Below are positions 139-49,812 of a stretch of 49,812 nucleotides of DNA, one piece after another. The stretch is from assembly GCA_017471245.1 (NCBI GenBank), contig JAFUVB010000057.1, positions 1 to 49,812 on the forward strand, given 5' to 3'. The DNA is from Prevotella sp. (GTDB taxonomy: Bacteria > Bacteroidota > Bacteroidia > Bacteroidales > Bacteroidaceae). Numbering within the stretch: the stretch's first letter is position 1; each line of letters starts with the position of its first letter. The position numbers were made by a program, and so were the translations under genes. The notes under the pieces are model-generated. The model had not been told where the DNA came from. It saw nothing but the letters and a program-made list of their open reading frames with translations, and ran no database searches.

Positions 139-243
139 ATTGAACGTTTACCATTGAACATTGAACATTGACCATTGAGCATTGACCGTTGACCGTTTTC
201 CATTGAACATTGACTATTGAACATTGAACATTGGGAGTTGAAC
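139..243. repeat. ATTGACC-type heptamer array, 15 units
   Basis: Fifteen consecutive 7-nt units fill the stretch without a break. Most are ATTGAAC, ATTGACC or GTTGACC, with variants GTTTACC, GTTTTCC, ATTGAGC, ATTGACT and ATTGGGA. The same family appears inside two fecR genes (10102-10129 and 27883-27959). The array lies between the gene end at 100 and the toxin stop at 366. Confidence 0.9.
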
Positions 244-2600: not shown

Positions 2601-2615
2601 GAATGGGGAATGAGG
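2588..2615 (+). repeat. Short heptamer run across the GH3 stop codon
   Basis: Four units (AGTTAAG, AATTAAG, AATGGGG, AATGAGG) cover the last GH3 codons and its stop. They also create the ATG at 2603, a possible upstream start for the next gene. Confidence 0.55.
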
Positions 2616-2635
2616 ATAAGCATATTGGACGCAAG

Positions 2636-4600
2636 ATGATGAAGGCGGGAAACGGCCTGCGTCAGTTTATGGTGGTGATGCTGTTGTGGAGCGTCGCCAC
2701 GGCACTGCTCTTCTCCTGCGCCAAGATGGGTTCACCCGACGGCGGATGGTATGACGAGGAACCGCCGCACATCGTGGGCAGCATCCCAGAGGACAAGAGC
2801 GTGAACGTGAAATCCAAGAAAATCAGCATTCTCTTTGACGAATATATCAAGGTGGACAACCCCACGGAGAAGGTGGTCATCTCGCCACCGCAGTTGGAGA
2901 TGCCCGAGATAAAAGGTGCAGGCAAGCGCATTTTGGTGAACCTGCTTGACTCGCTGAAAGAGAATACCACCTACACCATCGACTTCTCGGATGCCATCAG
3001 CGACAACAACGAGGGAAACCCATTAGGCAACTACACCTATTCGTTCTCTACCGGCAACCACATCGACACCATGGAAGTGTCGGGATATGTGGTGGAGGCA
3101 GAGAACCTGGAACCAGTGAAAGGCATCTTGGTGGGACTCTATGAGAACATGGCCGACTCGGCATTCCACCATGAGCCGATGCTGCGCGTGAGCCGTACCG
3201 ACGGCCGCGGGCGCTTCGTCATCAAAGGTGTTGCCAACAGCAGCTACCGCATCTATGCCCTGCAGGATGCCGACGGCAACTACGTGTTCAACCAGAAGAG
3301 CGAGATGATTGCCTTCAACCACGACACCATCGTGCCAAGCAGCAAGCCCGACATACGGCAGGATACCATCTGGCGCGACTCACTGCACATCAACACCATC
3401 AAGCGAGTGCCTTACACCCACTTCCTGCCCGATGACATCGTGCTGCGCGCATTCAAGGAGGTGCAGACCGACCGCTACCTGCTGAAAAGCGAAAGGGCGA
3501 AGGCAGAGCAGTTTACATTCTATTTCAGCTACGGCGACTCCATACTGCCCAATTTGCGCGGACTGAACTTCGACGAAAAGGATGCCTTCGTGGTGGAGCA
3601 CACTGAGAAGAAAGACACCATCACCTACTGGATTCGCGACTCGCTGCTCATCAACCAGGATACGCTGAAAGTGGAACTGGCATATCATGCCACCGACACC
3701 ACCGGCATGCTCATGCTGCAGACCGACACGCTCACACTGCTCTCAAAAGAGCCGTATGAGAAACGCATGAAACAGAAGGAAAAAGAATACAACGACTGGA
3801 AGAAACAACAGGCAAAAGCAGAGAAACGGGGCGAACCCGTGCAGACGGAGATGCCCAAGGTGTATCTGCAACCGCAGTATAAGGCTCCCTCTGAACTGGA
3901 TCCCGACAAGAACATCTCCATCATCTTGCCTGTGCCGATAGAGAAACCCGACACTTCCATGATACACCTATACTCCAAGCGCGACACCCTTTGGTATCAG
4001 GCACCATTCCTGTTCCGGGAAAAGGAGAATCAGCCACGCACCTACGAACTGTTAGGCGAGTGGCGACCGGAGGTGGAATACAGTTTAGAGATCGACTCTG
4101 CCGCCTTCAGAGATATCTACGGCAACGTGTCGAAAGCCTTCAAGCAGGGATTTAAGGTTAAATCAAACGATAGCTACAGTTCGCTGCTCATGAACGTGAC
4201 TGGATACAAAGGCAAGCGCATCGTGGCACAGTTGCTCAGCAGTTCCGACAAGGTGGCTAAAGAAACCACTACCGAATCGGGTGTCTTGGAATTCTTCTAT
4301 GTCACCCCCGGCACTTACTACCTGCGCATGTTTGAAGACAACAACGGAAACGGCAAATGGGACACTGGCGACTATGATGCCGACCAACAGCCTGAGAATG
4401 TTTACTATTATCCCGACAAGATTGAGTGTAAGGAGAAATGGGATGTGACGCTTACATGGAGCATTCGCCTGAACAGCGACGGGCAGTTGAAGCCTGCTGC
4501 CATCACCAAGCAGAAAGCCGACAAGCAAAAGACCATCAAACGGCGCAATCTGGAGCGTGCCAAGCAATTGGGTATAGAATACTTGCAAGAGCAATTGTAA
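2636..4600 (+). CDS. Ig-like domain (SbsA/Big_5 type) lipoprotein
   Basis: From the ATG at 2636 this is a 654-residue exported lipoprotein. A short basic N-terminus and a hydrophobic stretch end at LLFSC, with lipid-attached Cys28. Next comes a Big_5/SbsA-type Ig-like domain (PPHIVGSIPEDKSVNVK ... TYSFSTGN, about 40-140) and then a carboxypeptidase-regulatory-like beta domain (VSGYVVEAENLEPVKGILVGLYE). The C-terminal part has a similar fold with DNNGNGKWDTGDYD, which resembles a calcium-binding loop. An ATG at 2603 is also in frame, but it lies within the heptamer run and gives an over-long N-region, so 2636 is preferred. The role is unknown. Position between GH3 and DUF3108 suggests an envelope function. 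Confidence 0.85.
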   Translation: MMKAGNGLRQFMVVMLLWSVATALLFSCAKMGSPDGGWYDEEPPHIVGSIPEDKSVNVKSKKISILFDEYIKVDNPTEKVVISPPQLEMPEIKGAGKRILVNLLDSLKENTTYTIDFSDAISDNNEGNPLGNYTYSFSTGNHIDTMEVSGYVVEAENLEPVKGILVGLYENMADSAFHHEPMLRVSRTDGRGRFVIKGVANSSYRIYALQDADGNYVFNQKSEMIAFNHDTIVPSSKPDIRQDTIWRDSLHINTIKRVPYTHFLPDDIVLRAFKEVQTDRYLLKSERAKAEQFTFYFSYGDSILPNLRGLNFDEKDAFVVEHTEKKDTITYWIRDSLLINQDTLKVELAYHATDTTGMLMLQTDTLTLLSKEPYEKRMKQKEKEYNDWKKQQAKAEKRGEPVQTEMPKVYLQPQYKAPSELDPDKNISIILPVPIEKPDTSMIHLYSKRDTLWYQAPFLFREKENQPRTYELLGEWRPEVEYSLEIDSAAFRDIYGNVSKAFKQGFKVKSNDSYSSLLMNVTGYKGKRIVAQLLSSSDKVAKETTTESGVLEFFYVTPGTYYLRMFEDNNGNGKWDTGDYDADQQPENVYYYPDKIECKEKWDVTLTWSIRLNSDGQLKPAAITKQKADKQKTIKRRNLERAKQLGIEYLQEQL

Positions 4601-4663
4601 GTTAGGGGTGAGTGATTAGAGGTGAGAGGTGAGAAATTAGAGGTGAGAGGTGAGTGATTAAAC
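4601..4663 (+). repeat. GTGAGAG/ATTAGAG heptamer array starting right after a stop codon
   Basis: Nine 7-nt units (GTTAGGG, GTGAGTG, ATTAGAG, GTGAGAG, GTGAGAA, ATTAGAG, GTGAGAG, GTGAGTG, ATTAAAC) begin at the first base after the TAA at 4598-4600. The purine-rich strand is the coding strand. Confidence 0.9.
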
Positions 4664-5556: not shown

Positions 5557-5647
5557 GATTTAGAGGTGAGAGTTAAGAATTAAGAATTAAGAGTTAAGAA
5601 TTTAGAGTTAAGGATTTAGAGGTGAGGATTTAGAGGTGAGAGGTGAG
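5557..5647 (+). repeat. Heptamer array (GTTAAGA and GGTGAGA types), 13 units, abutting the DUF3108 stop
   Basis: Thirteen units (GATTTAG, AGGTGAG, AGTTAAG, AATTAAG, AATTAAG, AGTTAAG, AATTTAG and so on) begin at the base after the TAG at 5554-5556. The coding strand is purine-rich. The array is the left arm of a long inverted repeat with 5731-5814, and its RNA could fold into a terminator-like hairpin between the two convergent genes. Confidence 0.92.
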
Positions 5648-5720
5648 AGGATTAGAAGATTAGAGAATACATTCGAGTACAAGTAATCTAATACATTTGA
5701 GTACAAGAAATCTGTAACAA
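5641..5720. repeat. Core of the palindromic heptamer-armed element, intergenic copy
   Basis: After AGGTGAGAGG comes ATTAGAAGATTAGAGAATA, then ATTCGAGTACAAGT. This matches the core of the elements in the locus B fecR (reverse complement of 28047-28127), with one heptamer fewer in the left arm. A TTCGAGTACAAG/TTTGAGTACAAG pair repeats within the core. Confidence 0.6.
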
Positions 5721-5730
5721 AACATACGTC

Positions 5731-5814
5731 TTCATTCCTTAACTCCTTCACTCCTCAACTCTCACCTCTAAATTCTTAACTCTAAATTCTTAACTCTTAA
5801 TTCTTAACTCTTAA
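5731..5814 (-). repeat. Heptamer array, 12 units, abutting the esterase stop
   Basis: Read on the minus strand, units TTAAGAG, TTAAGAA, TTAAGAG, TTAAGAA, TTTAGAG and so on begin at the base after the esterase TAG (5815-5817). They run for 12 units, the last ones degenerate. As in the plus-strand arrays, the purine-rich strand is the gene's coding strand. Confidence 0.9.
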
Positions 5815-7128
5815 CTATTCCAAGTTTCTCTTAATCCATTCCATCTGCCCATATTCCGTGTCATCACTCGTCCAATGCTCATTGATGGGAGTGATGAGCG
5901 GCTCTTTCTCGCATGAGAGCGTATTCCATACGGCATAGCTGGTGGTGGGAGGACAGGTCACATCGTTGAAGCCCCATGTGAGATAGGTCTTCGCCTTCAC
6001 ATAGCGTGCGAAGTTCACCACATCGTAATACGCCATCACCTTCATTTTCTCGGGCGTGAGCATTTTGTTCATGCGGTTGAAATGCGGATAGCCACCCGTG
6101 CGCCCTTTCTCGGCATAGCCAGCCATGTCGCTCAATGCGGGGTGGTTTGCCACACAGAGCGTGACGCGCTTGTCGAGTCCTGCCGTGACAATCGCCAAGG
6201 CACCGCCCTGACTGCCACCTTGCACAGCCACGTTCTTGCCGTCCCATTCGGGCAGGGAGGTGAGCAGGTCGATGCTCCGCACACATGCCAGATAGACATG
6301 CTTCATATAGTAGTTGTCGCGGTCGTCGAGACCATTCTCCAAATAGCCGTTGTTGCTGTTGTTCAAGGCATTGCTGATTTCCTGGAACTGCTTGTCGGTC
6401 ATCGTGGGATTCAAGCCGTGAATCTCTATTTCCAAACGGATGAAGCCGTTTTCTGCATAGTATTTGTGGCGCAGCGGCTCCTTGATGGTCTTCACGCCGG
6501 CACCCGGAGGACACATCACCACGGGGCAACTGCCCTTCTTTGCCCCCTTCGGATAGAACAGATAGCCATAAATGCACTGTCCGCGGCTGTCAAGCTGCAA
6601 GCGTATCAAGTAGCAGTCAATCTTGTCGGTGCAATACTCCTTTGCCAATTCCTTGGAATAAGTGAGCGGGAACTTCGCCGCCTGCGCCATGTTCCGATCC
6701 CAGAACTCGCGGAAATCAGCCGGTTCTGCGGTGTAAGGCCTGATGTCGTCAACAGAGAAACCCACCTTGATATGATGACTATACTCCTTCCCGTCGATGT
6801 TTATTTTCAGGCGCAGGTCGCGGAATCCGGAAGTCTTGCGCGTACCTATATTAATATGCGCGCGCCCATTCTTCAGCTTCACGCTTCCCGTCTGGTCATC
6901 CTCCAGCATGTCGTTTCCGACGCCATACGTCACCACACCGTCGCGCGGAATGCCGTATTTATAGAACTGCACCTCAACAATGGCTTTCTCGCCCGTCTTG
7001 TAAGTCCAGTCGGCATGATCAGGGACGGTCACCCAGAGATAATCACTGCGATAGGGATAGTTCTCCGCCATCATCATTGAAAGTGAAAGGTGGAAGAACA
7101 AAACCAAAAAAAAGATTTTTTTCCTCAT
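5815..7128 (-). CDS. Secreted CE7-type acetyl (xylan) esterase
   Basis: This 437-residue protein has a signal peptide (FFLVLFFHLSLSMMMAE). An N-terminal beta domain of about 130 residues is followed by an AXE1/CE7 alpha/beta-hydrolase. The CE7 signature RGQ (SRGQCIYGYLFYP), the nucleophile elbow GGSQGG (Ser306), Asp389 in WGFNDVTCPP and His418 in INEHWTSDD are all visible. CE7 enzymes remove acetyl groups from xylan-derived sugars and related esters. The HE motif is changed, with the order Glu-His. The extra N-terminal domain is longer than in compact bacterial CE7 enzymes. It diverges from the hydrolase at 7223, sharing a 94-nt promoter region. Confidence 0.85.
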   Translation of the reverse strand: MRKKIFFLVLFFHLSLSMMMAENYPYRSDYLWVTVPDHADWTYKTGEKAIVEVQFYKYGIPRDGVVTYGVGNDMLEDDQTGSVKLKNGRAHINIGTRKTSGFRDLRLKINIDGKEYSHHIKVGFSVDDIRPYTAEPADFREFWDRNMAQAAKFPLTYSKELAKEYCTDKIDCYLIRLQLDSRGQCIYGYLFYPKGAKKGSCPVVMCPPGAGVKTIKEPLRHKYYAENGFIRLEIEIHGLNPTMTDKQFQEISNALNNSNNGYLENGLDDRDNYYMKHVYLACVRSIDLLTSLPEWDGKNVAVQGGSQGGALAIVTAGLDKRVTLCVANHPALSDMAGYAEKGRTGGYPHFNRMNKMLTPEKMKVMAYYDVVNFARYVKAKTYLTWGFNDVTCPPTTSYAVWNTLSCEKEPLITPINEHWTSDDTEYGQMEWIKRNLE

Positions 7129-9157: not shown

Positions 9158-10393
9158 ATGAAAAGAGCTGAAATATTAAAAGACATAAAACTGCTGATAC
9201 TAAAATACATTTTAGGAATTATCAGCGATGAGGAGAAAGAGCGTCTGAATTCATGGAGGCAAGAGTCACAGGAGCACGAAGACATCTTTCAATGGCTGAG
9301 CCGTGCAGAACACCATGAGGAAGAATATCTGTTCCGCCAATCCATGAATACAGAACAAGCCCTTCACGCCTTTAAGAAAAAAGTGGAGAAGTTAGAGGGG
9401 AGAAGTAAAAAAATTCCTCTAAAATACGCCGCTGCCATTTTGGTGTCTATTATTGTCGGCGCAGGATATTGGTATTGGCAATATACCAAGGTGACGCCAC
9501 CAGAAATATCCGAAGACATTCAGCTCGCCATGCAGCTGAGCATCCAAAGCGGAAAGCAGGAAGCTGAAAGTGAAGAGTTAAGAGAAAGTGAAGAGTTAAG
9601 AGTGAAGAGTGAAGAATCAGAGTTGAGTGAAGAGTTAAGAGTGAAGAGTGAAGAATCACATGGAAAAATGAATAAAGAAGAGTCACCAGCGAAAAATTCT
9701 TCACTCTTCACTCTTAACTCTTCACTTAATATCACCTCTTCACTTACTAAGGATCAGCTGTTGGCAGCCAAGCGCATTACCACCAAGCACGACAAGGAGT
9801 TCTGGCTGACATTGGATGACGGCACATTGGTACACCTTAATTACAATACGCGCCTGATATACCCCGAGAAGTTCGGGCGTGACGACCGCAACGTCATTCT
9901 TGACGGTGAAGCCTACTTCATGGTGGCAAAAGACAGAAGCCGCCCCTTCATCGTTCACACCCCAAATGGGGATGTAAAGGTATACGGCACCGAGTTTAAT
10001 GTGAATACCAACAACACAGCTGTCGTTCTCGTAAAGGGTTCTGTATCTGTAACGCCGACCGGCGGCAAGGAAAAGATGCTGAAGCCAGGACAGCAGGCAA
10101 CGGTCAATGTTCAATCGTCAACAGTCAATATTGAAAGTGTGGATGTGGAGCCGTATGTGGCTTGGAATACAGGAACCTTCGTTTTCGATGATTGCCCATT
10201 GGAGACGATGATGGAGGTTCTCTCTCATTGGTATGGTTTTGAGGTAGTATACGAAGACGATGATGTAAAAAAAGAACGAATAACAGGTGATTTTGACCGA
10301 TATGTCAAACCAGATCAACTGCTGGAGGCAATAAGCAAATCATCAGGTTTATCCATTCGTAGTGAAGAGAAGACACTATATGTTAAACATTAA
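9158..10393 (+). CDS. FecR-family anti-sigma factor of locus A (DUF4974 C-terminus)
   Basis: This 411-residue protein has a cytoplasmic sigma-binding part (1-85), one membrane helix (KYAAAILVSIIVGAGYWYW, about 89-107), a linker, the periplasmic FecR domain (about 205-315) and a DUF4974 domain (about 330-411). Such proteins hold the ECF sigma until the STN domain of a SusC contacts them. The linker is odd. Bases 9564-9735 are heptamer repeats read in frame as SEELRVKSEES-type peptides, then an inverted arm read as SSLFTLNSS. A smaller array (10102-10129) lies before DUF4974. The central FecR block is nearly identical at DNA level to the two other fecR genes here. The gene sits 11 nt before SusC. 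Confidence 0.9.
   Translation: MKRAEILKDIKLLILKYILGIISDEEKERLNSWRQESQEHEDIFQWLSRAEHHEEEYLFRQSMNTEQALHAFKKKVEKLEGRSKKIPLKYAAAILVSIIVGAGYWYWQYTKVTPPEISEDIQLAMQLSIQSGKQEAESEELRESEELRVKSEESELSEELRVKSEESHGKMNKEESPAKNSSLFTLNSSLNITSSLTKDQLLAAKRITTKHDKEFWLTLDDGTLVHLNYNTRLIYPEKFGRDDRNVILDGEAYFMVAKDRSRPFIVHTPNGDVKVYGTEFNVNTNNTAVVLVKGSVSVTPTGGKEKMLKPGQQATVNVQSSTVNIESVDVEPYVAWNTGTFVFDDCPLETMMEVLSHWYGFEVVYEDDDVKKERITGDFDRYVKPDQLLEAISKSSGLSIRSEEKTLYVKH
9564..9735. repeat. Inverted GTGAAGA-type heptamer element inside fecR of locus A
   Basis: AGTGAAG, AGTTAAG, AGTGAAG, AGTGAAG, AATCA is present twice in direct orientation (about 9589-9658). After about 40 nt its reverse complement follows (about 9698-9728). 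The arms match over roughly 30 nt. The whole stretch is open in the fecR frame. The right end, from CTTCACTTAATATCACC onward, is shared with the fecR at the window's right edge. Confidence 0.88.
10102..10129 (+). repeat. Four-unit GGTCAAT-type heptamer array inside fecR of locus A
   Basis: GGTCAAT, GTTCAAT, CGTCAAC and AGTCAAT are read in frame between the FecR and DUF4974 domains. The same site in the locus B gene has a longer array. The peptide between the shared flanks is 14 residues longer there, which is 42 nt or six heptamers. Confidence 0.8.
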
Positions 10394-22656: not shown

Positions 22657-24207
22657 TCATTTGGCCTGTGCAGGGTCGTATTCTGTCTCAGGCAAGGGGA
22701 TGACATACGTGTTTTCGCCAGCCGGTTCGCTCATCCATTTGATGGATTTCTCGCCCAGGCGCTTATAAGTGAAGAACATCTGCCCCTCGCCGTAGAACTC
22801 CCGGCGGTACTCGTTTTCTATCCAAGTGTGCACATCGCTCAAACTGCTGAACTCAGGCATACTAGCAACGTCGTGGGCAACCATGTATTCCCTGTAGAGA
22901 CGGTTCACTTCTGTCAGGTCGGAAGAAGTCTCCATGGCTATCAGGTACATCTCCGACACGCGAAGCATGGGTACTATCTGATAGTAAAGAGCAGGGTTCG
23001 TCACCTTCTCCTCGTCGTAGCAATAGCGCATAAAACCGCACCACAATGCACTGGCATCATCTCTCAGCTGCCGGTTCCACAGGTTGGTATAGCGGTTGTG
23101 GCTGTTGGTGTTCTCACCGTCGAACAGTTCATCGAGCATGGTGTGCGTGAGCACGAGATGATACTCTGGGTCATAGGTGCCGATGATTTTTTCCTCGTTG
23201 TCGGAGAAATAGCCGACAGCAAGCGACTGTATGTTATATTTGCTGATGCTGAAGTAGCATTCGTTGGGACACGCCAAATAGCCTGCCTTGAAATCGCTCT
23301 GTCCGCTCAAAGCGCGTACGGTTCCGCCGTCGGCTCTCTGCGCACCTATCAGCTCGCGTGCAATGGTGAGCGCTTCCTGCTTGTCGCCTGTATAGAGTGC
23401 CATGCGGGCATGCAGTGCGCGCACAGCCCAGTAGTTGAGCCTCATCTGGCGGTATTGCAGATAGGCATGCTGCTCATACACCTCGCCCGTGGCATAGGTT
23501 CTGTTATACGGATAATGCATGGCGGGATCGCTGTCTTTGAGCAATTGCTCAGCCTGCGTAATGTCGCTCTTCAGCTTGCCAACATATTCGTTGAAACCGA
23601 AATAGGGAGGCATCTCATCAATGCCTGTTGTTTCAGAATAGGGAAGCTTCACCTGCATCGACCCTCCTTGCGGCATCTGCCCGAACAGTCGCAGGATGTC
23701 CAACTGGCAATAGGCACGTATGGCGTAAGCTTCGCCCAAGACAATGTCATGGATGCGCTTCTCTGAGAACACGCCCACATTTTCATTGGCATTCTTGATG
23801 ATCAGACTTGCCTGGGCTATTGTCTTGAAAAGCGATGTATAGATTCCGCTCATGGCACTCTTGGCATAGTCGGAAGTGTAGTCGTGATTGCTTAGGTCAC
23901 GCTCTGCATAGCGCTTGCTACTGGGGGTTATATACCATAGGTCGGCAAGGCATTCCACGCTGGTCATGCTGAGCCGCATGCCGTAGGCATCGGTCGAAGC
24001 CATTTGTATGTAGCAGCCGGTAAGAGCCGTCTGGAAACCTTTCTCTGTAGAGAACTGTCCATCCTCTTTCTGCTCTGTGTCAGGACGAACATCAAGCCAG
24101 TCGTTGCAACTTGAAAGCAGCAAGGAGCAAGACGCAAGCATCAAGAGCCAGGCCATTAGTCCGGTCCTGTTTATCTTAATAACTCTTTTTGTATTCATAA
24201 TCATCAT
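22657..24207 (-). CDS. RagB/SusD-family surface lipoprotein, locus B
   Basis: This 516-residue lipoprotein has a lipobox LLSSC followed by NDWLDVRPDTEQ. SusD features include GEAYAIRAYCQLDILRLFG, the helical middle region, and the C-terminal ENEYRREFYGEGQMFFTYKR with YVIPLPETE. It pairs with the SusC encoded 15 nt upstream. The start is one of two close ATGs (24207 or 24198). It is the counterpart of the locus A SusD at 13813. Confidence 0.93.
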   Translation of the reverse strand: MMIMNTKRVIKINRTGLMAWLLMLASCSLLLSSCNDWLDVRPDTEQKEDGQFSTEKGFQTALTGCYIQMASTDAYGMRLSMTSVECLADLWYITPSSKRYAERDLSNHDYTSDYAKSAMSGIYTSLFKTIAQASLIIKNANENVGVFSEKRIHDIVLGEAYAIRAYCQLDILRLFGQMPQGGSMQVKLPYSETTGIDEMPPYFGFNEYVGKLKSDITQAEQLLKDSDPAMHYPYNRTYATGEVYEQHAYLQYRQMRLNYWAVRALHARMALYTGDKQEALTIARELIGAQRADGGTVRALSGQSDFKAGYLACPNECYFSISKYNIQSLAVGYFSDNEEKIIGTYDPEYHLVLTHTMLDELFDGENTNSHNRYTNLWNRQLRDDASALWCGFMRYCYDEEKVTNPALYYQIVPMLRVSEMYLIAMETSSDLTEVNRLYREYMVAHDVASMPEFSSLSDVHTWIENEYRREFYGEGQMFFTYKRLGEKSIKWMSEPAGENTYVIPLPETEYDPAQAK

Positions 24208-24221
24208 TTATTTATTATCAA

Positions 24222-27200
24222 TTAAAACAACAGCTTTACGCTGGCTTGTATGTTGCGGGCATAAGGATAGTTGATACCGCGTTCCTGCCTGATTGTTCCC
24301 CAATGGAAAAGATCGCTGGTGTTAATTCCAAACACAGCCGTCTGCATGCCGAGGGTCTTGCGAAGCCACTTGCCGTCCCAGCGGTATTGCAAACTGGCTG
24401 AAGACAGTTCAAGCACATTGTCTTTCATCACGAAGCGCGATGTGGCACGTGTGGCATTCTCGCTGTATCCCTTAAAGAAGGTGACATCGCCCGGTTTCAT
24501 CCAGCGGTCGGTCAGTGCGCGGCGGTCAACATTCTGCGACTTCAAGGCAGCGATAGGCACTTCCACCTTGTCGAGCAGCGTGCTGTTGTATCTGTAGCCG
24601 CCCCAATAGTAGGTGAAAGTGAAGTTGAGCGTCCATCCCTTGTAACGGATAATGTTGCTGAAATTGCCTCGGTACTTTGGATCAGCCTGTCCGCAGAACA
24701 CTTTGTCGCCCGGTCGCCAAGAGTCGGTCACGTTTCCGTCTCGGTCAACATAGATTTCCTCTCCTGTGGAAGGATTGATGCCTAACGACTTCACGGCGTA
24801 GATGGCATTCTGCGGCTGTCCTTCATAGAACAGGTTTGCCACCTCCACATTCTGAGCGCGATAAGCCTCTGTCTGTGCCTTCACATAATCAGAGAGTTTG
24901 GAAATCCAGTTCTTGTTATAAACCAGTTGTCCTGTCATCATCCACGTGAACCCGTGATTCATGTCGCGGATAGGATAGCCGCTGAGCGACAGTTCCCATC
25001 CTCGGTTTTTCACTTCACCCACGTTGGCAATATAGTTGTTGATACCCATGCTCGATGGCAAATCCATGTTGGAGAGCAGGTTCGACGTTCTCTTGTCGTA
25101 GATATTGAACTCTCCCTTCAGCCGTCCCTTGAGTATACCAAACTCCAGTCCAAGGTTCGTCTCACGTGTGGTTTGCCATGTAAGGCGCGGGTTTCCCCAT
25201 GCTATCAGCTGCGAACCAATCCAGTTCATGTATTTGCTCGAAGTGATTGACCTGAAGATGGTGTTGGCACCAGAGCCACTGCCCATCTGTGATCCCACCT
25301 CACCAATGGATGCTTTCAGACGCAAGATGTTGAGAACGGGATTACCCTTGAGGAATTGTTCGTTGTGCAGGTTCCAGCCAATACCCGTTGACCAGAAAGG
25401 AGCCCACTTCTTCTCGCTTCCAAAGGTGGAACTGCCGTCAACGCGATAAGAGAAATCAAGATAGTAGCGTGAGTCATATGTATAGTTCACGTTGCCCGTG
25501 AAACCCACTCTTCGCGACTTGCTCTTGGTGCCGTTGGGTATTCCGTCGTGCAGATACTGGCGCGCATTGCCTAAGAACGGATTCTCGCTGTCGGAAATGC
25601 CTTCTGCCGTGAATGAATAGGAAAGGTTGTCGCGGGCGGAGACAGAATAGTCGGCACCTACGTAAAGCAGATGCTTGTCGGCAAACAGATGGCTATATGA
25701 CAATGTTGCGTTTCCGTCGTAGCTGTATCCGTTGCCTGTTCCATAACGGTAGAGTCCGCGCCTGAGGAATCCCTCATCGGTGTTATACTCATAATAATGT
25801 CCATAGCTGTTGGTGGTAAAATAAGAATGCTCTGCGGGCAGGAAATAGTCGCTGTTGTTGTTCAGCTTACTGATTCCGAACTGTCCGCGGAACGTGAGGT
25901 CGGGAATGATTTTCCACTCGATGGCAAAGTTATTGGTCAGCGTTTCGTGTCCTGCCTTGTCAATGGTGTTCAGTTCCGCATCGTAGAGCGGGTTGGCGCG
26001 TCCTGTTCCCTGAGAAGGACCGAGGAAAGCCTCAAAATACTGGCGCAAGGCGCCGTTCTCATCGTATGGAATGTCATAGGGCTGCAGGGCAACATACTGG
26101 TTGAAGTTTCCGAAGTTGCTTTCTTGTGAGCGCACCAGTCCCAGTGTGGTATAGTTCTTGAAAGTGATGTTTTTCAGGGTGTACACCAGCTGGATGCTTC
26201 CATTGAACGAGTGGCGATATGAGTTTTTCATGGCACCTTCCGTATCTTTGAAGCTTGTGCTCACAGCCCAGCGGAACTGGTCGCTGCCACCCTCTAAACG
26301 AAGGTTATAGTGGGAGCCAACGCCCGTGCGCACTGGCTTGTTCAGCCAGTCAGTGGTGGCACCGGAGAGCACGCTCTTCAGCTTTTTGTTATAATGCTCC
26401 TGAAAATTATAATCGTTGGGGGCATAGTCGGCTGAATAGAGATTCAGCGAGTTCTCTAACTCCAGTTTCTCCTTAGCATTCAGGTAATCATAACTTGTCA
26501 GGTCGGGAGCCTCAATGTCAACTCCCACTTCAGCATTGATGCGCAGTCTCCCGGCTTCGGGCTGTCGCGTGGTTACAACAATGACACCGTTGGATCCGCG
26601 TGAGCCGTAGATGGCGGTGGCAGCGGCATCCTTCAGGATGTTGATGCTCTCAATCTCCTCATCGTTGTAGTCCATGAGTTTCTCAAGCGACATCTCGAAT
26701 CCGTCGAGGATAATGAGCGGCGTGTTCACGCTGTTGCTGGTGGAACTGTTGAACTCCGCAACACTCATCGGTAGGCTTGAATTTCCTCTAATGTTTATCT
26801 GCGGCAGGTTGTTCGGGTTGCTACCGGCAAGATTGTTCACCTGAAAATTGAGAGAGGCGTCGATGGTCTTCAGCGTTTGCAGCAGGTTCTGTCCTTTGTG
26901 CAGGTTCAGTTCTTCCTTGTCGATAGTGGAGACGGCTCCCGTGTAGCTCTCCTTGGCTTTATTGAAGATACCCGTTACCACCACTTCACCGATTTGGTTG
27001 TCTGAACGCATCACCACGTCGCGCTTCACGTTGCCCGTTCCCTGGGCTATGGTGACATACTCTGTCGTTAGTCCCACGTAGGTAAACTTAAGCTGCGTTT
27101 CCTCTGCGGGGATTCTGACGGTGTAGAATCCGTTGATGTCGGTTACTGCCGACACGCGGGAATCGCCTACACCCACGGGAACCCCCATGAGCGGTTCTCC

Positions 27201-27581
27201 ACTTTCGTCGCGTACATATCCCGTTACCGTGCGCTCGCGCTTCTCCGAATTCTTACGGAAAACGGTTATCGTGCGCCCGTTGATGTCGTAGGTGCAACCG
27301 GCATTGCCCAGCACTTGGTTTAGCACCTCGCGCACCGGCTTGTCTTTGACATGTACACTCACCTTGGGCAGCGACTTGGCAAGTTCACTGCTGATGACAA
27401 AATTGTAGCCTGTCTGTTTTTGAATCTGTGAAAACACCTGATCGATTCTCACATCATTCAGGCTCAGCGTGACCAAATCACCTTTCTGTGCAAAAGAATG
27501 AAGTGTCAACGTCGGACAGAATGAAAACAATGCTATCATCAATAGCATGATTCCACTCCTTTTCAACTTAACATTTTTCAT
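24222..27581 (-). CDS. SusC/RagA-type TonB-dependent transporter with STN domain, locus B
   Basis: This 1119-residue protein has a signal peptide ending about residue 32, the STN domain (about 35-108, SLNDVRIDQVFSQIQKQTGY ... INGRTITVFRK), a carboxypeptidase-regulatory-like domain (GYVRDESGEPLMGVPVGV), a plug with LIILDGFEM and SNGVIVVTT, and a barrel ending NIQASVKLLF. The STN domain predicts signalling through the adjacent FecR, which is frame-disrupted. It lies 30 nt after fecR. It is closely related to the locus A SusC in the plug and first barrel strands. Confidence 0.94.
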   Translation of the reverse strand: MKNVKLKRSGIMLLMIALFSFCPTLTLHSFAQKGDLVTLSLNDVRIDQVFSQIQKQTGYNFVISSELAKSLPKVSVHVKDKPVREVLNQVLGNAGCTYDINGRTITVFRKNSEKRERTVTGYVRDESGEPLMGVPVGVGDSRVSAVTDINGFYTVRIPAEETQLKFTYVGLTTEYVTIAQGTGNVKRDVVMRSDNQIGEVVVTGIFNKAKESYTGAVSTIDKEELNLHKGQNLLQTLKTIDASLNFQVNNLAGSNPNNLPQINIRGNSSLPMSVAEFNSSTSNSVNTPLIILDGFEMSLEKLMDYNDEEIESINILKDAAATAIYGSRGSNGVIVVTTRQPEAGRLRINAEVGVDIEAPDLTSYDYLNAKEKLELENSLNLYSADYAPNDYNFQEHYNKKLKSVLSGATTDWLNKPVRTGVGSHYNLRLEGGSDQFRWAVSTSFKDTEGAMKNSYRHSFNGSIQLVYTLKNITFKNYTTLGLVRSQESNFGNFNQYVALQPYDIPYDENGALRQYFEAFLGPSQGTGRANPLYDAELNTIDKAGHETLTNNFAIEWKIIPDLTFRGQFGISKLNNNSDYFLPAEHSYFTTNSYGHYYEYNTDEGFLRRGLYRYGTGNGYSYDGNATLSYSHLFADKHLLYVGADYSVSARDNLSYSFTAEGISDSENPFLGNARQYLHDGIPNGTKSKSRRVGFTGNVNYTYDSRYYLDFSYRVDGSSTFGSEKKWAPFWSTGIGWNLHNEQFLKGNPVLNILRLKASIGEVGSQMGSGSGANTIFRSITSSKYMNWIGSQLIAWGNPRLTWQTTRETNLGLEFGILKGRLKGEFNIYDKRTSNLLSNMDLPSSMGINNYIANVGEVKNRGWELSLSGYPIRDMNHGFTWMMTGQLVYNKNWISKLSDYVKAQTEAYRAQNVEVANLFYEGQPQNAIYAVKSLGINPSTGEEIYVDRDGNVTDSWRPGDKVFCGQADPKYRGNFSNIIRYKGWTLNFTFTYYWGGYRYNSTLLDKVEVPIAALKSQNVDRRALTDRWMKPGDVTFFKGYSENATRATSRFVMKDNVLELSSASLQYRWDGKWLRKTLGMQTAVFGINTSDLFHWGTIRQERGINYPYARNIQASVKLLF

Positions 27582-27882
27582 ACAGTCATAATTATATTAA
27601 ACTTTTAAAGACTATTTCTCGATAATAATACTCTCTCCCTGATGCCTCAGCCTGAGACCCACGCTCATGGTGATGGCTCTCAATGTGTTGTCGAGCGGTT
27701 CATAGCGGTCGAAATAACCGATGATCTTCCGGCTCTTGATTTCTTCAGACGCAAAGTCGATGTGTATGCCATACCATTTTGATATTACATTTATCACCCG
27801 CTCCAGTTCAATGTCCTTGAATGAGAACTTACCAATATTCCATGCCACATACGGTTCCACATCCACGTTTTCAACTTTGATC

Positions 27883-27959
27883 ATTGATGATTGACCATTG
27901 ACCGTTGACCATTGACCATTGGCCATTGATGATTGACCATTGACCGTTGCCTGCTGACC
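27883..27959 (-). repeat. ATTGACC-type heptamer array, 11 units, inside fecR of locus B
   Basis: ATTGATG, ATTGACC, ATTGACC, GTTGACC, ATTGACC, ATTGGCC, ATTGATG, ATTGACC, ATTGACC, GTTGCCT and GCTGACC run without a gap. Read on the minus strand they encode NGQ/SS/NGQW-type peptides between the FecR and DUF4974 domains. The same family occurs at 139-243 and 10102-10129. Confidence 0.9.
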
Positions 27960-28030
27960 TGGCTTCAACATCGTTTCCTTGCCGCCGGTAGGTGTTACTG
28001 ATACGCTTCCCTTTACGAGAACGACGCTGG

Positions 28031-28128
28031 TAGAGGTGAGAGGTGAGAGGTGAGAGATTTGTCTTGATTATGCTCACCTGTACTTGATTCTATTCTCTCA
28101 CCTCTAATCTTCTTACCTCTCACCTCTG
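28031..28128 (-). repeat. Palindromic heptamer-armed element, copy 1, inside the FecR domain
   Basis: On the plus strand a left arm of repeated GAGGTGA units is followed by a core (GTCTTGATTATGCTCACC, TACTTGATTC) and then TATTCTCTCACCTCTAATC and a pyrimidine arm. The 81 nt at 28047-28127 match copy 2 at 71 positions by hand alignment, with no gaps. It sits in the variable loop after FNVNT and is where the reading frame breaks. Confidence 0.88.
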
Positions 28129-28415
28129 TTCTCGTATTCACATTGAACTCGGTGCCGTATACCTTCACATCCCCATTGGGGGTATGAACGATGAAGGGGC
28201 GGCTCTTGTCCTTGGCAACCATGAAGTAGGCTTCACCGTCAAGAATCACGTTGCGATCGCCACGCCCGAACTTCTCGGGATATATCAGGCGCGTATTATA
28301 ATTAAGGTGTACCAATGTGCCATCGTCCAATGTCAGCCAGAACTCCTTGTCGTGCTTGGTGGTAATGCGCTTGGCTGCCAACAGCTGATCTTTGGTAAGT
28401 GAAGAGAGATTCTCA

Positions 28416-28537
28416 GGGGTGAGAGGTGAGGGGTGAGAGGTGAGAGATATGTCTTGCTCCTGCTTACCAGCACCCGATTCTATTCTCTCACCTCTAATCT
28501 TCTCACCTCTCACCTCTAACTTCTCACCACTCACCCC
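28416..28537 (-). repeat. Palindromic heptamer-armed element, copy 2, in the periplasmic linker
   Basis: Same structure as copy 1: GGTGAGA arm, core GTCTTGCTCCTGCTTACC with CCGATTC, then TATTCTCTCACCTCTAATC and a pyrimidine arm. The matched 81 nt are 28437-28517, exactly 390 nt (130 codons) from copy 1, so both are read in the same frame. The fecR frame passes through this copy unbroken. Confidence 0.88.
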
Positions 28538-28682
28538 AAAAACTTCTGCTTCCTGCTTTCCGCTTTGGATGCTCTGCTGCATGGCGAGCTGAACGGCTTC
28601 GGAGATTTCTGGCGGGGTGACTTTCGTGTATTGAGAATACCAGATTCCTGCGCCTGCAACAAGAAGCACCAAGATGGCAGCG

Positions 28683-28806
28683 GCATATTTTAGAAGATTA
28701 GAGGTGAGGGGTGAAAGGCTACGGGTAGGCGCGTCAGCGGGAATGGGCGAGCTTGGCTCGGGATTGAAGGTTAGAGAAATGCCCTGCTTCTGTTCACCGC
28801 TCACCC
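28683..28806 (-). repeat. Degenerate third copy of the element upstream of the membrane helix
   Basis: AGAAGATTAGAGGTGAGGGG at one end and TTAGAGAAATGCCCTGCTTC plus GTTCACCGCTCACCCC at the other resemble the arm and core of copy 2, with unrelated sequence between. They encode SLSPLTSNLL and SGEQKQGISLTF, similar to the peptides of copies 1 and 2. Confidence 0.5.
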
Positions 28807-29087
28807 CGTTCAACATACTATACTCACGGTATCTTTTAGCGATTTCTGCACCGCTTTCGTTCATCAGTTCGTCATACTTCCTCTTGAAACTCTCGTCCTT
28901 TAAACGGGCGTTGAGCAAATCAAGCTCCTCCTCGGTGAGGGGCTCACCGAAAAGTTTTCTCGTGATAATATCATTAATCGTTGTTTTCTGCATAACAAAG
29001 CGTTTTTAATTCAATAACACAATGGTATGCAAAATGGTGACAAGACTACGAAAAAAAGTTATAACTCGTAACGAATTTTGGAAGATT

Positions 29088-49115: not shown

Positions 49116-49812
49116 CTATTTGATTACTACATGATTGTCTTTCATGGTAATTGTAAGCCCAGTGGCGAATTCGATTGCATGAAGAGCCGGAGAGATGCTC
49201 TTGTATTTATTGATGTTACCCGTAAAAGGAATGCTGCAGGCTTTCTGGTTCTCAAAAGTAACCTGAACGCCATACCAATGACTCAATATCTGCATCAGCT
49301 TGTCAAGTCGGCAGTCTCTGAATATATACTTTCCTTCGTTCCATGAAGTGTATATATCGGTTTCCACGTTTTTGTCAACCAACTCCAACTCATTTGTCTT
49401 CATTTCACCCAACTGCCCAGGCTCAAGTATCAATTCTATTCCTTTCGACGAAGTGAGTCCTACGCTTCCTTTTACCAAAACCACGGTGGTTGAGGCAGCA
49501 TTTGTGTTCACATTAAACTCTGTGCCATATACTTTGATGTCGCCGTGTAGTGTATGTACAACAAATGGGCGGCTCCTGTCCTTGGCGACCATGAAATAAG
49601 CTTCACCATCAAGAATCACGTTGCGGTCGCCGCGGCCAAACTTCTCGGGGTATATCAGACGCGTATTATAATTAAGGTGTACCAATGTACCATCGTCAAG
49701 TGTCAGCCAGAACTCCTTGTCATGTCGCGTGGTGATGCGCTTCGCTGCCAACAGCTGATCCTTAGTAAGTGAAGAGGTGATATTAAGTGAAGAGTGAAGA
49801 GTGAAGAGTGAA
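49116..49812 (-). CDS. FecR-family anti-sigma factor of locus C, N-terminus outside the window
   Basis: The frame is open from the window edge to the stop at 49116. It starts in a heptamer-encoded linker (SLFTLHSSLNITSS), followed by TKDQLLAAKRITTRHDKEFW, the FecR domain (GEAYFMVAKDRSRPF, VYGTEFNVNT, VVLVKGSVGL) and DUF4974 (FRDCRLDKLMQILSHWYGV ... TMKDNHVVIK). The membrane helix and the sigma-binding part would lie beyond 49812. The linker and central block are almost identical to the locus A gene, whereas DUF4974 diverges. No ATTGACC array is present before DUF4974, unlike the other two. It is probably co-transcribed with the SusC 35 nt downstream. Confidence 0.88.
   Translation of the reverse strand, partial: SLFTLHSSLNITSSLTKDQLLAAKRITTRHDKEFWLTLDDGTLVHLNYNTRLIYPEKFGRGDRNVILDGEAYFMVAKDRSRPFVVHTLHGDIKVYGTEFNVNTNAASTTVVLVKGSVGLTSSKGIELILEPGQLGEMKTNELELVDKNVETDIYTSWNEGKYIFRDCRLDKLMQILSHWYGVQVTFENQKACSIPFTGNINKYKSISPALHAIEFATGLTITMKDNHVVIK
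49752..49812 (-). repeat. GTGAAGA-type heptamer array in the fecR linker, cut by the window edge
   Basis: Minus-strand units TTCACTC (three times) and TTCACTT are followed by AATATCACCTCTTCACTTAC. The same junction occurs at about 9715-9746 in the locus A fecR. The outer arm, if any, is beyond the window. Confidence 0.85.

Follow-up and report, generated by a model that had tools for sequence, protein, structure and literature searches.

The repeats described here probably stem from a modular, non-autonomous hairpin element, in which a core is enclosed by two tandem-heptamer arms and which is dispersed in the manner of MITE- or REP-like palindromes; we put the probability of this reading at roughly two in three. 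Copies of it are found within and between genes of the window, i.e. of the whole 49,812-nt stretch of Prevotella sp. DNA that was analysed, and its components recur elsewhere in the same genome and in other genomes.

Two copies lie in one fecR gene of the window (Table 1). As reported in the earlier note, positions 28047-28127 and 28437-28517 are nearly identical (71 of 81 positions, no gaps), are 390 nt or 130 codons apart and share one frame of the minus-strand ORF 28013-28993, where copy A is translated as VRGKKIRGERIESSTGEHNQDKSLTSHLSPL and copy B as VRGEKIRGERIESGAGKQEQDISLTSHPSPL. A longer alignment, 28032-28127 vs. 28422-28517, is identical at 85 of 96 positions (89% over 96 nt). The inverted GGTGAGA-type arms noticed earlier are also present, and they were found to consist of tandem heptamers, with GGTGAGA units forming one arm, TCTCACC units the opposite one, and a period of 7 at 28032-28056, 28095-28127, 28418-28446 and 28485-28535. 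Rather than a fixed palindrome, the element is a core with tandem-heptamer arms that vary and come in more than one type. The sequence GGTGAGAGGTGAGA, with up to three mismatches allowed, occurs 38 times in the window, whereas 100 shuffled sequences contain it 3.2 times on average and never more than 8 times. Both copies fold into strong predicted hairpins (z = -5.7 for copy A at 28017-28135, z = -5.5 for copy B), and none of 200 shuffles was as good. Copy B (28437-28487) matches core 2, one of the two dispersed cores described below, with 76% identity (E = 3.5e-4), as do both copies of the fecR paralog C6 (likewise 76%); copy A gave no match to the core-2 query at E<=0.01.

The degenerate third copy that had been proposed at 28683-28806 does exist, but the segment is a composite, which holds a further, GGCTACGGGTAGGCGAGC-like module. 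The own-genome loci examined contain this module at 11 different places. A GGCTACGGGTAGGCGAGC...GCTCGGGAATGA-like module stands before several core-2 copies (L149, L152, L153, L156, L158) as well as inside fecR, at the same segment. The intergenic relative claimed at 5641-5720 carries core 2 (matches at 5690-5746 and 5663-5689), but the surrounding stretch 5600-5749 folds weakly (z = -1.9; 9 of 200 shuffled sequences did equally well).

Table 1. Repeat sites and parts of the disrupted fecR gene in the window (a dot means that no strand is assigned)
Feature	Position	Strand	Remarks
Intergenic TTGAACA/TTGACCA heptamer array	139..233	.	
Intergenic GGTGAGA-type array after ORF 2603-4600	4602..4660	+	no opposite arm seen
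Intergenic composite between convergent ORFs	5558..5816	.	GGTGAGA- and AGTTAAG-type heptamers, core 2 (twice, partial), octamers
AGTGAAG-type element, both arms, in frame	9565..9726	+	site 1 of second fecR (9158-10393; paralog 9731); reads SEELRVK...SLFTLNSSLN
Short TGGTCAA-type array	10101..10128	+	site 3 of second fecR
fecR remainder, different frame	27612..27971	-	FecR_C domain
TTGACCA/TGGTCAA heptamer array, fecR site 3	27877..27949	-	VNGQWS-type repeats ahead of FecR_C domain
fecR N-terminal part	28013..28993	-	FecR domain, profile 2-84 of 97; frame stops at 28013
Element copy A, fecR site 2	28032..28127	-	heptamer arms, short core; fecR frame shifts in TCTCACC arm
Element copy B, fecR site 1	28415..28535	-	heptamer arms, core akin to dispersed core 2
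Degenerate composite copy, fecR N-terminal part	28683..28806	-	holds GGCTACGGGTAGGCGAGC-like module
AGTGAAG-type arm, site 1 of third fecR (minus strand; paralog 49410)	49786..49812	.	cut by contig end

Since the FecR and FecR_C domains are in different frames, the gene is broken at copy A in the assembly, and the suggested addition of a tolerated peptide does not apply to this particular fecR as assembled. The break, seen in one draft assembly, may be an assembly error, the mark of a dead gene copy or a reversible slip. Unbroken fecR paralogs are present in the genome. Downstream of the window gene lie a SusC-like (24222-27581) and a SusD-like gene (22657-24207). The segment 29256-29909, which adjoins the broken fecR, matches Kinase-PolyVal (PF18762) and not a sigma factor.

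The genome has 26 FecR-domain matches; ten of these are more closely related (E<=1e-30), and the window's contig carries three of the ten. Filled, reduced and empty element sites coexist among these paralogs. Site 1 is occupied by a GGTGAGA-type element in the window gene (28121) and in C6, by an AGTGAAG-type element in 9731, C26, C10 and, at the contig edge, 49410, and is empty in C53, C64 and C56, whereas C16 is cut there. At site 2 the window gene and C6 have the full element, C26, C10 and C16 a reduced one, and 9731, 49410, C53, C64 and C56 none. The element sites are thus common to several paralogs, so the copies look inherited or exchanged rather than freshly inserted, and the idea that the element inserted at least twice into this one fecR was rejected, paralog C6 carrying both. 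The DNA between the two sites is 86-93% identical in five paralogs, the N- and C-terminal parts 57-76%, which argues that the middle of the gene has been exchanged among the paralogs. The middle of the window gene is closest (93%) to that of 9731, a paralog with a different type of element at site 1 and an empty site 2; element content therefore changes faster than the gene itself. The site-2 segment is 108 nt long in the window and 154, 85, 79, 58 and 13 nt in five paralogs; its length is 1 mod 3 in all five and 0 mod 3 in the window gene, which has three TCTCACC-like units there vs. four in the in-frame paralogs C6 and C26. When filled and empty sites of fecR and KdtA (see below) were compared by eye, the flanks were too diverged and no target-site duplication was seen; no constant insertion junction was found either.

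Beyond fecR, the genome was sampled for tandem repeats over 296,062 bp. Sixteen arrays had a period of 7 and none a period of 3 to 6; among other periods, the multiples 14 and 21 gave nine arrays each, 22 gave 13 and 12 gave five. Many arrays are accompanied, at a distance of tens to a few hundred nucleotides, by their reverse complement, the paired arrays being of the GGTGAGA, TTGACCA, AAGAAGC and AGTTAAG/AGTGAAG types. Fifteen scrambled heptamers did not occur at all in the own-genome sample and the window.

Two cores recur at unrelated places with 75-97% identity. At E<=0.01 the genome contains 34 matches to core 1 and 40 to core 2; these include partial and tandem copies and are therefore not counts of separate elements. 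The examined copies are almost always intergenic. Core 1 has arms of GGTGAGA or of AAGAAGC, and a copy tends to have the same type left and right: among 30 copies scored by a script, one of them unscorable, 17 had AAGAAGC on both sides, nine GGTGAGA on both sides and three one of each (26/29 concordant, Fisher p=2.2e-5), although one copy scored as GGTGAGA on both sides looks mixed by eye. The right arm of core 2 is usually an octamer array, (AACTCCTT)n, and in fecR it is TCTCACC. Two core-1 elements fold at z = -11.6, and four of the five folded elements are strong hairpins. Terminal inverted repeats, the classical criterion of MITEs, are present in the elements. Core 2 is also repeated in tandem, with a spacing of about 79 nt, at G000:C103:55128-55424 (L155, L159-L161). 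A plasmid or phage origin of the cores was considered and rejected: a plasmid search with one core-1 copy and a phage search with one core-2 copy gave no match.

Arrays of the same heptamers sit inside many unrelated genes. Of 247 arrays, 89 have an open frame extending 60 or more codons beyond both ends when read as TCTCACC, and 6 in the opposite reading; it must be noted that these loci were mostly fetched because they carry the repeat, thus the fractions are not genome-wide. The asymmetry is expected: TCTCACC repeats are free of stop codons in all three frames and read as SHLSPLT, whereas in three perfect units of GGTGAGA every frame has a TGA. From 346 sequences we collected 88 distinct in-frame ORFs, several of which are plainly repeat-made non-genes and some of which come from outside Bacteroidota. 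Thirty of the 88, picked by eye as recognisable genes, were scanned with Pfam, and six were used in a PDB search. In 20 of the 30 chosen proteins a Pfam domain spans the array: a P-type ATPase, CbiD, an AAA helicase, threonine synthase, PurB, TsaE, PurD, SufS, two amidohydrolases, 5-formyl-THF cyclo-ligase, a Pyr_redox_2 protein, aminopeptidase P, CbiC, a SAM methyltransferase, a radical SAM/HemN protein, GATase_3, TP_methylase, TatD and a CDP-alcohol phosphatidyltransferase. For the remaining ten (MetH, FeoB, DnaG, CarA, two KdtA proteins, a CbiT/CobL-like protein, a DEAD helicase, a PLD protein and a DUF5703 protein) the array falls outside the segments with the best matches or in a gap between two of them. 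The genome of the window contributed CbiD, the AAA helicase and the DUF5703 protein. Two arms with a core are found inside genes of other species, too, e.g. in DnaG of G017, and many in-gene arrays have no recognisable core.

Compared with solved homologs, the array adds six residues to PurB, four to TsaE, and 16 and six at two places of threonine synthase; in SufS, CbiT/CobL and 5-formyl-THF cyclo-ligase it adds none or about one. In SufS (L249) and CbiT/CobL (L197) the heptamer-encoded peptide aligns with at most one gap, as though native residues had been substituted rather than added to. A variable loop of KdtA was compared in 32 proteins: the SLTSHLSPLTS type is found in five, and an octamer array and a TCTCAAC-like repeat in one protein each; two of the five repeat carriers (L325, L335) had been found via the repeat, so the count is otherwise three in 30 best matches. 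Depending on the species, this loop (L346-L375) holds TCTCACC, TCTCAAC-like or CAATCTCT-octamer repeats or a short unrelated sequence. The array sites thus look like permissive loops, which are held by different repeats in different species. As related bacteria have the same repeats in many unrelated genes with the frame intact, these proteins contain stretches resembling parasitic DNA.

With the 96-nt copy as query, matches at E<=1e-6 were obtained in 4 of 40 relatives, the own genome included, all of the same genus. (TCTCACC)3 with at most one mismatch is present in 78 of 200 genomes of the genus and in 21 of the 86 high-quality ones, with up to 104 matches in one genome. The control pattern, read backwards, was absent from most genomes of the genus and occurred 31 times in G049, where the reversed heptamer type is evidently common. 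The reversed, uncomplemented heptamer is frequent in G049, G062, G160 and other genomes of the genus (up to 14+17 matches), pointing to further heptamer families. An exact-match scan of named genomes yielded at least 118 stretches; among the matches listed, many are from Prevotella or Prevotellaceae MAGs of ruminants, others from Saprospiraceae, Hymenobacter and a few other phyla, and the named isolates with arrays include Hymenobacter piscis and H. amundsenii. Dispersal beyond fecR, which the earlier note had anticipated, is thus borne out by the two core families, the distribution of (TCTCACC)3 and the unrelated in-frame genes. A duplication confined to this fecR lineage was rejected, cores and arrays being found at unrelated loci and in other genomes, and the proposed likeness to Rickettsia palindromic elements (RPEs), dispersed palindromes located between genes and in frame in unrelated genes, is therefore supported.

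How could such a distribution arise? In the reading we prefer, the unit would be a core of about 45-60 nt between tandem-heptamer arms, the right arm complementary to the left, and copies would spread like small MITE or REP palindromes by means of an enzyme supplied in trans. Replication slippage and copying between the two arms of a hairpin may let the arms grow, shrink and switch type. A copy inside a gene would survive only in a tolerant loop and with a length that keeps the frame. The absence of stop codons from TCTCACC and the presence of TGA in GGTGAGA would explain why the in-gene arms on the coding strand are TCTCACC, and why the GGTGAGA arms are degenerate. In fecR the elements would fill several loops, be exchanged among the paralogs and vary by the number of heptamers.

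An alternative, which we consider unlikely, is that nothing mobile is involved: a replication or repair bias favouring 7- and 8-nt tandem repeats would generate the arrays in place, and the fecR copies would be alike through gene duplication and conversion. Such a bias would fit the multitude of heptamer types and the octamers. When the TCTCACC types were masked in the 118 named loci listed, 80 arrays with period 7 and 30 with period 8 were found, and at most three with each of the periods 2 to 6. The different repeats in the one KdtA loop, the proteins without added length and the homogenised middles of the fecR paralogs agree with this alternative as well, and in-gene arrays that have no core or add no length fit local change better than insertion. 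Against it speak the roughly 60-nt cores at unrelated places, because local expansion copies no core, and the presence of the same heptamer in many genes while none of its scrambled versions was found in the own-genome sample and the window.

REP/BIME palindromes are linked to RAYT transposases, and it is conceivable, but quite improbable, that the modules described here are palindromes dispersed by such a Y1 transposase. Y1_Tnp was found in 55 of 78 array-bearing vs. 56 of 122 array-free genomes (odds ratio 2.8, p=7.7e-4), and ORFs of RAYT-like length (taken as 240-345 aa), assessed by eye among the matches listed, showed an odds ratio of 4.0 (p=3.4e-4), both values being uncorrected for phylogeny. 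The genomic context of the cores was read for 30 of the 34 core-1 and 20 of the 40 core-2 matches, four core-1 copies at contig ends being set aside. Core 1 never lies between divergent genes (0/26 vs. 26/110 background spacers, p=0.004), as would suit a REP-like palindrome, but intergenic core 2 is not depleted there (4/19). Moreover, the only Y1_Tnp match of the window's genome is in an open frame of 173 aa, below RAYT-like length, and 5 of the 23 genomes with at least 20 arrays have no Y1_Tnp match. Arrays and Y1_Tnp are thus associated, but these array-rich genomes suggest that a RAYT is not required.

An artefact of assembly or binning is hardly credible: many carriers are MAGs and the frame break in the window was seen in one draft assembly, but arrays occur in 78 of 200 genomes, in a CbiT/CobL-like gene (L197) of the single-contig 3.45-Mb genome G132 and in named isolates such as the two of Hymenobacter.

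It is instructive to compare the hairpin element with repeats known from other bacteria. Cyanobacterial STRRs are tandem heptamer repeats. They and the TAACTGA heptamers resemble our arrays in being tandem heptamers with many sets per genome; here the arrays form inverted pairs around cores, are of several types and frequently lie in frame within conserved domains. In the available parts of the source, TAACTGA sets are described from Beggiatoaceae, Cyanobacteria and five Bacteroidetes, with many sets per genome, mixed heptamers and 7-nt indels between strains, as mostly intergenic direct repeats with few and mainly peripheral sets in ORFs (PMC4679880). The BrickBuilt MITE of Porphyromonas gingivalis, whose host is of the same bacterial order, also has a minisatellite within a small inverted-repeat element, in about 19 copies; it differs in its 23-nt unit, located between a leader and a tail, and in being, as far as the accessible text describes it, always intergenic (PMC4596501). 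REP/BIME sequences, described in the part available as dispersed mosaics of palindromic modules (PMC3733652), share the dispersed palindromic organisation, but here in-frame genic copies are common.

Closest in behaviour are the RPEs and the coding palindromes of Wolbachia, which, according to the accessible parts of the papers, are about 100-150 bp long, occur between genes and in frame in unrelated conserved genes, and can fill orthologous sites with different element groups in different species (PMC2229807, PMC3767692, PMC10969869). The window copies are similar in their length of 96 nt, inverted arms, strong hairpins and dispersed location, both intergenic and in frame within genes, and the loops are held by different repeats across species, as described for some RPE sites in the available part of PMC3767692. 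They differ in their variable tandem-heptamer arms of several types, in the many one-armed in-gene arrays and in their free-living Bacteroidota hosts. The element thus works like an RPE, but we do not class it as one, because interchangeable tandem-heptamer arms are absent from the RPE descriptions used; the distinction is drawn from these descriptions. Our literature search, limited to open-licence papers and hence weak, found no report of such elements in Prevotella, and three peptide strings occurred in none of the papers searched.

In the accessible parts of the literature, in-frame palindromic "selfish" DNA in conserved genes is known mainly from Rickettsia and Wolbachia, apart from scattered cases of intragenic MITE fusion. 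We suggest, as a tentative and rather doubtful generalisation, that Bacteroidota have a protein-coding selfish repeat system, in which hairpins with exchangeable arms colonise permissive loops of housekeeping enzymes, staying in frame because the heptamer is stop-free in the three frames of one strand, and in which 7-nt steps make loops and regulators such as fecR length- and phase-variable. A comparable spread among free-living gut bacteria, where many species are available and orthologous sites are found both filled and empty, would make it possible to test how the elements move, what protein loops tolerate and whether regulators of polysaccharide use are altered by slipping heptamers. For annotation, SHLSPLT, VNGQWS and SEELRVK repeats should be taken as derived from repeat DNA and need not be domains.

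A known RNA family was rejected as an explanation, since an Rfam scan of the window at the gathering threshold was negative. Two further kinds of repeats accompany the TTGACCA type. A 22-nt, AAAAGCATAGGTTACGGCAATT-like repeat lies between or beside TTGACCA arms (L045:100-740, L039:3600-3860 and 240-260 of the window), and pairs of TTGACCA elements are flanked by CTGCTGCGTTACC-like inverted repeats, which constitute a further layer of nesting (L031:5660-5960, L037:7080-7330).
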